Below are positions 14,938 to 18,614 of a DNA stretch of 43,294 bases, piece by piece; position 1 is the stretch's first letter, and each line of letters begins with the position of its first letter. A program made the position numbers and the translations under genes. Source of the DNA: an uncultured Clostridia bacterium (GTDB taxonomy: Bacteria > Bacillota > Clostridia > Christensenellales > Borkfalkiaceae); the NCBI GenBank assembly GCA_947177975.1, contig CAMWWH010000003.1, positions 1-43,294 on the forward strand, written 5' to 3'. The notes under the pieces were generated by a model that worked only from the letters and a program-made list of their open reading frames with translations, did no database searches and had not been told where the DNA came from.

Positions 14938-15663
14938 ATTTTTTTAAACGGCGGCTATTTAAGCGTCACCGACAGGGGCGCAGGCGATAGTGTGCTTTTT
15001 CTGCACGGCTATCTTTCGAACAAGGAAAGTTTTTATTATCAGACCCGATTTTTAGAGCAAAACGGCTACCGCGTGATTGCGCCCGATATGCCCGCGTTCG
15101 GGCAGAGCTCTCCAATTGATACGGCTTGGTCGGTGGGTGATTACGCCCGCTGGCTCGAAGATTTTATGGTGGCAAAGGAGCTTGACGGCTGTGCGGTCGT
15201 TGCACATTCTTTCGGCGCAAGGGTGATTTTCAAACTGCTCGGAAAGGAGCGGGGGCTTGTAAAAAAGCTTGTAATTACGGGCGGCGCGGGGCTTGTAAAA
15301 CCGCGTTCACCCGCATATATGCGGCAGGTAAAGCGGTACAGGCGCATAAAAAAGCTGTTTCCGAGGTATGCGGAAAGGCACTTCGGCAGCGAGGAATACC
15401 GTTCGCTTTCGCCGCTTATGCGCGAGAGCTACAAACTGATTGTAAACGAGGATTTGCGCGACTGCGCCGCAAAGGTGAGCGTGCCGACTCTGCTTATATA
15501 CGGCAACGGCGACACGGTGACTCCGCCGAACGAAGAGGGCGAAATTTTTCACTCGCTCATTGCGGACAGCCGACTGGAAATAATCGACGGCGGACATTTT
15601 TGTTTCAGCGAAAACAGCGAAAAGTTCAACGGACTTTTGCTGGAATTTTTAAAGAATAATTAA
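14938..15663 (+). CDS. Alpha/beta hydrolase, apparent ATT start codon
   Basis: In-frame reading from 14938 gives IFLNGGYLSVTDRGAGDSVLFLHGYLSNKESF...; VAHSFGARV nucleophile elbow, GGHFCF His; SD GGTGA 6 nt upstream of ATT; in-frame stop at 14929. Confidence 0.8.
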   Translation: MFLNGGYLSVTDRGAGDSVLFLHGYLSNKESFYYQTRFLEQNGYRVIAPDMPAFGQSSPIDTAWSVGDYARWLEDFMVAKELDGCAVVAHSFGARVIFKLLGKERGLVKKLVITGGAGLVKPRSPAYMRQVKRYRRIKKLFPRYAERHFGSEEYRSLSPLMRESYKLIVNEDLRDCAAKVSVPTLLIYGNGDTVTPPNEEGEIFHSLIADSRLEIIDGGHFCFSENSEKFNGLLLEFLKNN

Positions 15664-15671
15664 TGTAGCAA

Positions 15672-15839
15672 GCAAAACCGCGTTTTTGCGCAGCGCGACC
15701 CAATTTGCGCATATTTGCGGCTGACTGGGTGAATTGCCCCATTTTCTGATAATCGAGGGCACTTAAATAATGGGGCAAGAGGGCAACGCCCTAAAAATCG
15801 TCGGATTTATTTTGCGCCCCAAGCAAAAGAAATCGACGA
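15672..15839 (+). promoter_or_regulatory. Candidate structured leader / cis-regulatory RNA upstream of the MurF-like gene
   Basis: Inverted repeats: GCAAAA/TTTTGC (15672-15689); ACCCA/TGGGT (15698-15730); TTGCCCCATT/AATGGGGCAA (15734-15778); AGGGC/GCCCT (15780-15792); TCGTCG(G)ATTT..TTTTGC/GCAAAA..AAATCGACGA (15798-15839). Confidence 0.5.
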
Positions 15840-15851
15840 GAAAGGAAGATT

Positions 15852-17453
15852 ATGTTTTTTATCAACTGGCAAACAACATTGGAATGTGTGCTCATCGCGG
15901 TTGTGTTCGCGTGCTTTTTAAGCCTGACCGCCTTTAAAACGCTGGGCATTTTGCAGGGCTTCGGCTATAAAGGCGGTAAGCTCTTCGGCTGGGCGGGGCG
16001 CAAGAGCAACTTAACGCAGGCGCGCTTTTCTCTGCTTGCCATAGCCACGGCGCTCGCCTCGGCGGTAATCGCGCTGTGCTTCGGCTTTGCCGGCGCTCAC
16101 TGGTCGGCGGTTATAGGTCTGACCGCGTACCTTATATTCTTCGTTCTGTATCTGGTTGCCGAAAGCCGCCGCGCAATTAAAAACAGCGCAACGCTCACTC
16201 CGCGGTTCAAGCGGCTTTTAGTTACTTTCTGGCTGACGTTCGCGGTTATAACATATCTCGTAGTAACGCTTTTAAACTTCGGCGAATACGCGTGGGGCGC
16301 GCGGCTGTTTGCAACCTTAAAATACAGCGTACTCGCGGTTCTGCCGCTTTTGATTATCCCCGTTGTCTGCCTTGCCAATTGCATAACTCTCATTTGGGAA
16401 ACGCCGATAAATAAGTCGTACGTAAAGAAAGCCAAACGCGCGGTTGCGGCGGCAGATATAAAGGTAGTTGGCATCACGGGCAGCTACGGCAAGACGGGAG
16501 CGAAAAATATTCTAGCCGCTATGCTTGCCAAAAGTTATCGAGTGCTTTCGACCCCCTCGTCGTTCAACACACCTTTGGGTATCGCCCGCACGGTCAACGG
16601 CAACGACCTCAAAAACTTTGACGTACTGATTGCCGAAATGGGCGCAAGGCACAAGGGCGACATTGCCGAGTTGTGCGCAATCTGCCCGCCAGATTACTCG
16701 CTTATTACGGGTATCTGCCCCCAGCATTTGGAAAGCTTCAAGACTATCGAAAACATTGTAGCCGCCAAGGGCGAAATACTTACGGGCACAAAAATTAAGT
16801 GCGTGATAGCCGCGGACTGCTTCGAACACTTCAAGGATTTCGACGGAAACAAGGCTGTTTGCGACTGCGTGTCGGACGTCAAAGCCGACTGCACGGGTAC
16901 GGAATTTACGTTGAAGTTAGGCGGCGAGAGCAAGCGCGTCAAGACGGTGCTTTTAGGCGAACACAGCGCGTACAATATCGGGTTATGCGCGCAAGCCGCT
17001 TACGAAATGGGAGTGGGCTTAGAGCAAATCGCAGAGGCGGTCGGGGAGCTTAATTTCACCGAACACCGCTTACAGCTCATCGAGAACAACGGAGTTTTCA
17101 TTCTGGACGACGGCTACAATTCCAACGTCGTGGGCGCGAGGGCTGCGATAAAAGTTTTAAAATATTTCGGCGGCAAAAAGATTGCCGTCACTCCCGGTCT
17201 TGTGGAACTCGGCATTTTAGAGGAGAGAGAAAACGCGGCGCTCGGCGGTGAACTCGTCGGACTCGACTACGTGATTTTAGTCGGCGAAACGCTTGTGACC
17301 GCGGTTAAAAACGGTTACTTACAGGCGGGCGGCGACCCCGAAAAAATGGCCGTCGTTCCCAGCCTTGCGGCGGCTCAGGACGTGTTGAAGGACCTGCTTG
17401 CAAAGGGCGATTGCGTGTTGTTCTTAAACGACTTACCGGAAATTTATAATTAA
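15852..17453 (+). CDS. MurF-like Mur ligase with N-terminal transmembrane region
   Basis: GITGSYGKTGAKN P-loop, TPSSFNTPLGIARTVN, EMGARHKGDIAELC, DDGYNSN; four or five hydrophobic helices before residue ~190. Confidence 0.85.
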   Translation: MFFINWQTTLECVLIAVVFACFLSLTAFKTLGILQGFGYKGGKLFGWAGRKSNLTQARFSLLAIATALASAVIALCFGFAGAHWSAVIGLTAYLIFFVLYLVAESRRAIKNSATLTPRFKRLLVTFWLTFAVITYLVVTLLNFGEYAWGARLFATLKYSVLAVLPLLIIPVVCLANCITLIWETPINKSYVKKAKRAVAAADIKVVGITGSYGKTGAKNILAAMLAKSYRVLSTPSSFNTPLGIARTVNGNDLKNFDVLIAEMGARHKGDIAELCAICPPDYSLITGICPQHLESFKTIENIVAAKGEILTGTKIKCVIAADCFEHFKDFDGNKAVCDCVSDVKADCTGTEFTLKLGGESKRVKTVLLGEHSAYNIGLCAQAAYEMGVGLEQIAEAVGELNFTEHRLQLIENNGVFILDDGYNSNVVGARAAIKVLKYFGGKKIAVTPGLVELGILEERENAALGGELVGLDYVILVGETLVTAVKNGYLQAGGDPEKMAVVPSLAAAQDVLKDLLAKGDCVLFLNDLPEIYN

Positions 17454-17513
17454 GTTAATCAAAAAAACTGATTTCACCAAAGCGAAAAAATATTTTGCGG
17501 AGGTGATTTTTTT

Positions 17514-18614
17514 ATGCAAAAAAACTATGACGTCGCCGTAATATTCGGCGGAATTTCATCGGAAAACGAGGTGTCCGTAATTACGGGTACGATGGTCTGC
17601 AACGTTCTTTTAAAGGGCGGCAAAAGCGTACTGCCCGTGTATATCGACCACGGCGGCAAGCTGCACGCGGACGAGAAGCTTGCGGACGTATCCATATACA
17701 AAAACGGCGGATTCGAAAAATATCCGCAGTGCGGTTTTTACGGCGGTGGGGTGGTAGTTTTCAACACTCACGGCAAGCCGAAAACCGCCGCGGAGGTCGG
17801 GTGCGTAATCAACTGTTGCCACGGCGGCGCGGGCGAGGGAGGCGCGGTCGCGGGACTGTGCAATATTTTAAATATTCCCGTAGCCTCGGCGGGAATGTTC
17901 GAAAGCGCCGTATTTATGGATAAATATTACACAAAACTTGTGCTTCAGAGTTTGGGCGTAAAAATCGCAAAATACGCTTATTCGCGGCATATTACGGGGG
18001 CAATCGAGGGCGCAAAGGCGCTCGGATACCCCGTAATTGTCAAACCTGCCACTTTGGGCTCAAGTATAGGCATAGCCAAATGCGACGACGAAAAGGAGTT
18101 GAAAGAGGCGCTTATAACCGCGTTCGAGTTAGACGGCGGAGTGCTTATCGAGGAGTACTTTTCACCCATAAAAGAGATAAATTGCGCGGTTTATTGCTCG
18201 AACGGTGTGGCAATAACCTCGCAATGCGAAGAGGTTTCGTCCGACGGCGAGCTGCTTTCCTACGACGATAAGTATTGCGGGGGAGGTAAAAGAAAATTCC
18301 CCGCCGAACTTGAAAGCGAGGTTGCGGAAAGCATAAAAAACGAGACCGCGCGGGTATATTCGGCGCTGAATATGCGGGGTATTGTGCGGTTTGATTACAT
18401 AATATGCGGGGGGCAATGCTATTTAAGTGAGATAAATACGGTGCCCGGCTCGCTTTCGCAGTACTTGTTATCCGACAGCTATAAGAGCTTTTACAAGGTG
18501 CTTTGCTCGGTAATCGAGCAGGCGAAAGCCGATTTTACCGCACATAAAAAGAAGCGGGTAATTTCCACGGGCATTTTAAACGATATAAAACCTAATAAAA
18601 ATATTAAGAAATAA
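17514..18614 (+). CDS. ddl: D-alanine--D-alanine ligase
   Basis: VAVIFGGISSENEVSVITG, PVIVKPATLGSSIGI, FDYIICGGQCYLSEINTVPG; SD GGAGGTG. Confidence 0.95.
   Translation: MQKNYDVAVIFGGISSENEVSVITGTMVCNVLLKGGKSVLPVYIDHGGKLHADEKLADVSIYKNGGFEKYPQCGFYGGGVVVFNTHGKPKTAAEVGCVINCCHGGAGEGGAVAGLCNILNIPVASAGMFESAVFMDKYYTKLVLQSLGVKIAKYAYSRHITGAIEGAKALGYPVIVKPATLGSSIGIAKCDDEKELKEALITAFELDGGVLIEEYFSPIKEINCAVYCSNGVAITSQCEEVSSDGELLSYDDKYCGGGKRKFPAELESEVAESIKNETARVYSALNMRGIVRFDYIICGGQCYLSEINTVPGSLSQYLLSDSYKSFYKVLCSVIEQAKADFTAHKKKRVISTGILNDIKPNKNIKK

Follow-up and report, generated by a model that had tools for sequence, protein, structure and literature searches.

What is the folded stretch of DNA that separates an alpha/beta-hydrolase gene from a Mur-ligase-family (MurF-like) gene in the 43,294-nt stretch analysed here (the window)? 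A sequence-only reading of the intergenic region 15664-15851 described five inverted repeats, recognised no known riboswitch class, and proposed a possible cis-regulatory RNA acting on the MurF-like gene. The spacer sequence and a repeat search confirmed all five repeats where they had been placed, and the last hairpin does end ~12 nt before the ATG, beside the Shine-Dalgarno site. A structured element is indeed present in this region, but a covariance model sets its limits at 15661-15839, its graded 5' edge reaches the last codons of the hydrolase gene, and the comparisons below bear out a conserved, covarying structure without bearing out regulation of the MurF-like gene.

Results

Architecture of the window copy

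The element of the window is ~180-190 nt long, has no ORF, and consists of the parts listed here. Its hairpins are named P1 to P5, corresponding to P0 to P4 of the sequence-only reading.

14992-15663: alpha/beta-hydrolase gene, upstream of the element
15646-15665, + strand: graded T/A-rich 5' edge, TTTTTAAAGAATAATTAATG (family consensus TTTTaAAATAATTAACGG), defined by information content over 110 copies
15661-15839, + strand: whole element, covariance-model match (147.2 bits, E 2e-37)
15666-15691, + strand: P1, an outer stem plus the inner hairpin GCAAAA (15672-15677) / TTTTGC (15684-15689); formerly P0
15698-15730, + strand: P2, ACCCA (15698-15702) / TGGGT (15726-15730) around a conserved ATTT and CGCA-TATT-TGCG (15708-15719); formerly P1
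15727-15731, + strand: J strand, GGGTG, which may be the third strand in a triple helix with P4, from covariation with the mirror-read P4 left arm
15734-15778, + strand: P3, 10-bp stem TTGCCCCATT (15734-15743) / AATGGGGCAA (15769-15778) with a 25-nt loop carrying the conserved ATAATnGnGnGCnCTTA; formerly P2
15779-15792, + strand: P4, (G)AGGGC-AAC-GCCCT (AGGGC-AAC-GCCCT at 15780-15792), candidate partner of the J strand; formerly P3
15798-15839, + strand: P5, long terminal hairpin TCGTCGGATTTATTTTGC ... GCAAAAGAAATCGACGA with a sharp 3' edge; formerly P4
15840-15848, + strand: GAAAGGAAG, Shine-Dalgarno region of the Mur-ligase-family gene, abutting the 3' end of the element
15852-17453: Mur-ligase-family (MurF-like) gene, 533 aa, downstream of the element, with its ATG at 15852

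Downstream of the MurF-like gene lies a D-Ala-D-Ala ligase gene (window 15852-18614 for both), and the two make an ordinary cell-wall gene pair. When the 191-nt stretch of the window was folded alone, its stability exceeded that of shuffled versions only modestly (z = -1.72, with 10 of 200 shuffles equally good). Since this stability is weak, the reading of a single sequence is unable to settle the structure, and it is the comparison of copies that establishes structure beyond chance.

Copies and taxonomic range

The genome of the window holds ~7 copies, i.e., the window copy and six others matched over 44-180 bp at 75-92% identity, and their alignment shows entire stems altered on both sides. 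The sequence-only reading had suggested a genome-wide search for copies, of which many would speak against a regulatory leader; the locus proved to be one member of a multi-copy repeat. A first BLAST survey found the element in 31 of 61 relatives, and a covariance model built from 14 aligned copies and their consensus structure found it in 80 of 93 genomes of one genus, whose record titles give Candidatus Coproplasma and other uncultured Clostridia. Summed over these 93 genomes, the matches amount to at least ~1,070 copies between genes, a lower bound because up to 29 candidates were scored per genome; on deeper scoring, the 1.7-Mb genome G073 yielded 55. Related genomes thus differ in copy number from 0 to 55; G011, the nearest relative, scored zero in the covariance-model survey. 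Occupancy of more than 1,000 intergenic places in one gut-bacterial genus argues for a small selfish or mobile element and not for a single-gene switch.

In an order-wide search, matches fell within the bacterial family of the window, and the exceptions were a small number of weak matches from two further families. A sister genus (G379) carries a longer, ~217-nt variant in at least nine copies (e.g., L289, G379:C8 12483-12699). Head-to-tail arrays of 3-4 elements with a period of ~180-196 nt occur at L057 (G027:C17 37713-38268), L166 (3043-3831), and L157 (3834-4366), the next copy starting within a few bases of the preceding 3' end. Six copies (L346, L168, L161, L108, L138, and L150) have a P4 loop enlarged by a block of at least ~100 nt containing GAGATGAGCGAGCACC...GTGCGAGCGGTGACCGA, which looks like a different repeat nested within the element. 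In several genomes, a second dispersed sequence (CGACGCTTATATGCGTTTAGCGGCAGCC-like) lies near stop codons and near the element; such sites occur in the 3' flanks of L114, L117, L126, L143, L154, L156, L275, and L283 and in the guaA flanks L349, L351, and L359.

The family appears to be undescribed. No Rfam family was matched at gathering or relaxed thresholds, which agrees with the failure of the sequence-only reading to recognise a riboswitch class; phages and plasmids gave no element match, and an IMG/VR scan for the exact core pattern gave none. We found no description in the literature, and the element may be listed as an unnamed motif in large RNA-motif surveys such as PMC8040213.

Filled and empty sites

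Among 30 MurF-like loci, only that of the window carries the element, and 29 are without it (that of L024 gives a marginal 14.8-bit match). Relatives whose junction is readable have 0 to ~20 bp between the stop codon of the hydrolase gene and the start of the Mur-ligase gene, or an overlap of the two, so that in the window the element fills a spacer that is near-absent in these relatives. Comparison of reading frames with G011 showed that the 5' edge of the window copy reaches the last hydrolase codons and provides the hydrolase stop codon. Together with the copies elsewhere in its own genome, absence from 29 of 30 loci refutes a riboswitch specific to the MurF-like gene.

Other sites are likewise filled in some species and empty in others. 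Most genomes have an empty pyrH-frr spacer, but G005, G023, and G027 (the last as a tandem run) hold the element there in antisense and G077 in sense; a third site contains it in G001 and G026 but not in G107, and the edges of topA and guaA carry the element in some species only. The empty sites come from divergent relatives, which makes the exact insertion junction a putative one. The topA, guaA, pyrH-frr, and prfA edges are occupied in several species, and this repeated occupancy of the same gene edges could alternatively reflect retention by selection. The element is short, ORF-less, dispersed, and present at filled and empty sites, as MITEs are. Neither terminal inverted repeats nor a target-site duplication were found at the defined edges or in the empty-site alignment, which relies on divergent relatives.

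Covariation of the fold and its strand

The covariation that the sequence-only reading had proposed looking for is extensive. Across 74 copies, 43 of 50 pairs underwent two-sided compensatory changes and 93.9% of cells pair, a value that drops to 37-54% when the partner is slid by 1-3 columns and that was equalled by none of 500 shuffles. All five hairpins contribute. The inner helices of P1 (99% of cells paired; two-sided changes in 5 of 6 pairs) and P2 (99%; 4 of 5 pairs covarying) are strong and their outer helices weaker (76 and 75.5%, respectively). P3 is paired in 96.6% of cells with two-sided changes in 10 of 11 pairs, and such changes affect 5 of 5 pairs in P4 and 14 of 16 in P5.

In the inner stems of P1-P4, G.T mismatches far outnumber A.C mismatches (103 vs. 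14 cells; binomial p 6e-18, an optimistic value because related copies entered as separate cells). A two-strand cruciform would give equal numbers; therefore, the + strand, in the orientation of the window, is the folding strand under selection. P5 has no such asymmetry (63 vs. 47). The P5 tip often reads GCGCAGAATAGC (L054, L069, L070, L071, L072, and others) over a freely varying stem, and is a possible recognition site for a protein or other partner.

The sequence-only reading had also proposed a switch, in which the loop of the last hairpin would contact the right arm of the 10-bp stem. This complementarity is lost even in the nearest copies: in C78 the loop is CGCCTCAAG and the stem arm AATGCGGCAA, in C5 they are GCGCCCCAAGC and AATTGCGGGCA, and in most copies the loop is unrelated (e.g., GCAGAATA).

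A triple-helix-like code between J and P4

The strongest non-nested signals between alignment columns link P4 with J, the five bases before the AA that precedes P3. When J is read 5' to 3' against the P4 left arm read backwards, G stands opposite G, A or T opposite A, and T opposite C, as in the J/P4 combinations GTGTG/GAGCGG, GAGGG/GGGAGG, AAGTG/GAGAAA, and GTTTG/GAAAGG; the window copy (GGGTG against GAGGG) matches the code perfectly. Over 142 non-redundant copies, the code is true at 92.6% of positions, vs. 65.2% when partners are shuffled (z 18.7), and 109 copies outside the discovery alignment gave z 14.8. Watson-Crick pairing of J with either P4 arm describes the data more poorly; a helix of J with the right arm accounts for 72% of cells, well below the 93% of the triplex code. 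The G.GC and A(T).AT code, with the third strand running antiparallel to the purine one, is that of the purine motif, seen here as a pattern of covariation. From this pattern, J and P4 probably form a local triple helix.

Position relative to genes

Conservation over 110 copies stops sharply one base past P5 and fades across the T/A-rich stretch upstream of P1, where information content falls to background near position -14. The 3' end is also the one that is tightly placed. In 50 of 188 copies, the window copy included (P5 end 12 nt before the ATG at 15852, adjoining GAAAGGAAG), the element is sense to the following gene, ends 7-28 nt (mode 10-11) before the start codon, and has the Shine-Dalgarno site directly next to it. 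Another 58 of the 188 are antisense, with the stop codon mostly 1-10 nt (mode 6) from the 3' end, and several of the remainder lie just upstream of a -35-like box. The 5' side is placed loosely (medians of 67 and 138 nt in the automatic set). Compared with uniform insertion into spacers, this polarity is pronounced in both the hand-filtered set (KS p 5e-17) and an independent automatic set (2e-11); gene positions are simple ORF calls, which may put single distances in error but not the pattern. The polarity may arise from target choice, from deletion of the 3' flank on insertion, or from selection. Genes beside the placed copies are unrelated, share no common pathway, and occur in both orientations, which, like the dispersal and the empty MurF-like loci, disagrees with the proposed regulation of the MurF-like gene.

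Spread and the search for a mobiliser

Of the 69 copies whose genome contributed at least one further copy to the sample, 25 had their nearest neighbour in that genome, vs. 2.5 expected; resemblance within genomes at ten times chance indicates amplification within lineages. The mobiliser search covered the Y1 transposase, reverse transcriptase, and TnpB families. A Y1 transposase is encoded in only 26 of the 93 genomes, is absent from many high-copy ones, and does not correlate with copy number. Reverse transcriptase is absent from most high-copy genomes and TnpB from those tested, and neither tracks copy number; G073, G034, G015, and G002 are among the high-copy genomes that lack all three. 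Replication-strand bias was also absent over 175 copies (oriented GC skew -0.004 +/- 0.004), and an apparent strand bias on one 823-kb contig of G073 is treated as noise because of these 175 copies. An IS200/IS605-type or REP/RAYT element, for which a Y1 HUH transposase and a bias to the lagging-strand template are expected, was rejected on both counts.

Discussion

The element is dispersed in many copies and has amplified in particular lineages; its sites are filled in some genomes, in either orientation, and empty in others, its fold covaries, and it shows strand asymmetry and polarity. We consider it likely that it represents a new family of short, dispersed mobile elements whose selected form is the + strand folded as a single strand, either RNA or ssDNA. 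In the mechanism we propose, the + strand would fold into five hairpins and a probable local triple helix of J with P4, and this folded single strand would be the form recognised or copied as the element spreads, which would explain why the fold is conserved. Mobilisation would be carried out in trans by an enzyme, and insertion would be directed to short intergenic spacers with a polarity that sets the P5 end against a convergent stop codon or a Shine-Dalgarno site and occasionally against the -35 box of a promoter. If the MurF-like gene is affected at all, this would then be a by-product of insertion into an operon spacer.

The remaining explanations differ in what they make of the strand and of the neighbouring genes. 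It is conceivable, though we lean against it, that the element moves specifically as a folded single DNA strand, with a genuine purine-motif triplex (J.P4) in the recognition fold and recombination by host enzymes in place of a dedicated transposase. The strand-specific tolerance of G.T, the scarcity of G.U-type pairs, and a third-strand code like that of class I purine-motif intrastrand triplexes, which reportedly do not form in RNA (PMC4666352), would together make it a single-stranded DNA recombination substrate of new architecture. Of the stem pairs of the element, 2% are of the G.U type, vs. 8.4% for tRNA stems at the same loci; with only 19 tRNAs behind it, this difference hints weakly at a DNA form and speaks against RNA. 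The same tolerance of G.U over A.C in P1-P4 would also suit a trans-acting small RNA in many copies or an RNA-level retroposon, with + strand RNA as the functional and spreading form, and in the 5' edge, AAATAAT is similar to a -10 box. Since tRNA is known to contain single triples of this type (G.G-C and A.A-U), the J-P4 code is compatible with RNA as well. However, no -35 box is conserved and most high-copy genomes lack a reverse transcriptase; we regard this explanation as unlikely.

Slightly harder to sustain is a large cis-regulatory regulon, in which the element would be a riboswitch- or attenuator-like 5' leader of many genes with P5 as the expression platform. It would account for the strong structural constraint on the + strand, for the 50 copies that adjoin a Shine-Dalgarno site at their 3' end (some of them closely preceded by a promoter at the 5' edge), and for the essential genes downstream (tsf, hisS, topA, ftsY, and ruvX, assigned by reading N-terminal sequences). 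Yet antisense copies behind stop codons are as many as sense ones, the downstream genes have no pathway in common, and one and the same gene carries the element in some species but not in others. Nor is the terminal hairpin consistently terminator-like: P5 as an intrinsic terminator fits some copies (e.g., L061) but not AT-rich ones, and essential operon genes downstream argue against it. A riboswitch confined to the MurF-like gene fits the position and Shine-Dalgarno spacing of the window copy and is otherwise contradicted by dispersal, by the orthologous loci, and by the loss of the proposed loop contact, leaving it with almost no credibility. The mobile element thus remains our preferred explanation.

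For the gut Clostridia, this adds a very abundant, apparently undescribed dispersed element and removes a false riboswitch candidate. Its natural mutants supply base-by-base covariation evidence for a triple helix, and the close fit of one end to stop codons and Shine-Dalgarno sites follows a rule of either insertion or selection. With copy numbers of 0-55 among related genomes and no obvious mobiliser, a search for the responsible enzyme is feasible.

Comparison with known systems

Several known systems share parts of this description. HEARO and IscB-TnpB omega-RNA elements combine structured RNA with dispersed, ORF-less copies, as the present element does; in contrast, it has no Rfam match, and TnpB is absent from the high-copy genomes tested. 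With REP/BIME sequences mobilised by RAYT and with IS200/IS605 miniature elements it shares hairpins on one strand, dispersal, and the lack of a visible target-site duplication, but not the Y1 transposase, found in a minority of genomes, or a replication-strand bias. The enterobacterial small mobile sequences RU-1, RU-2, and RU-3 are ~100-170 bp, intergenic, and MITE-like (PMC2229807, PMC2759123), and our element is similarly small and intergenic. MITEs can fold as RNA (PMC4666352), whereas here five separate covarying hairpins replace a single long one, and neither terminal inverted repeats nor target duplication were seen.

Class I purine-motif intrastrand DNA triplexes have the strand order third strand (reverse-Hoogsteen), purine, pyrimidine and occur as repeats in bacterial genomes (PMC4666352). 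The element has the same strand order and the triplets G.GC, A.AT, and T.AT, but its putative third strand is only ~5 nt long, is split from the duplex by the whole hairpin P3, and uses T.CG at C-G pairs, and the triplex would be one module of a larger fold.

The bcr1-bcr18 repeats of the Bacillus cereus group are chromosomal repeats of 100-400 bp (bcr1 at ~39 per strain) and are reported to be mobile, possibly by a site-specific mechanism (PMC6542083). Their TTTAT motif was not identified as such in our element, which has only the graded T/A-rich 5' edge; we found no record for bcr repeats of a 3'-end polarity or a triple-helix code, and the sequence and fold of our element match no Rfam family. 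Both, however, are restricted to one bacterial group and reach tens of copies per genome (PMC6542083), and by this analogy the lifestyle of the element appears most like that of the bcr repeats.
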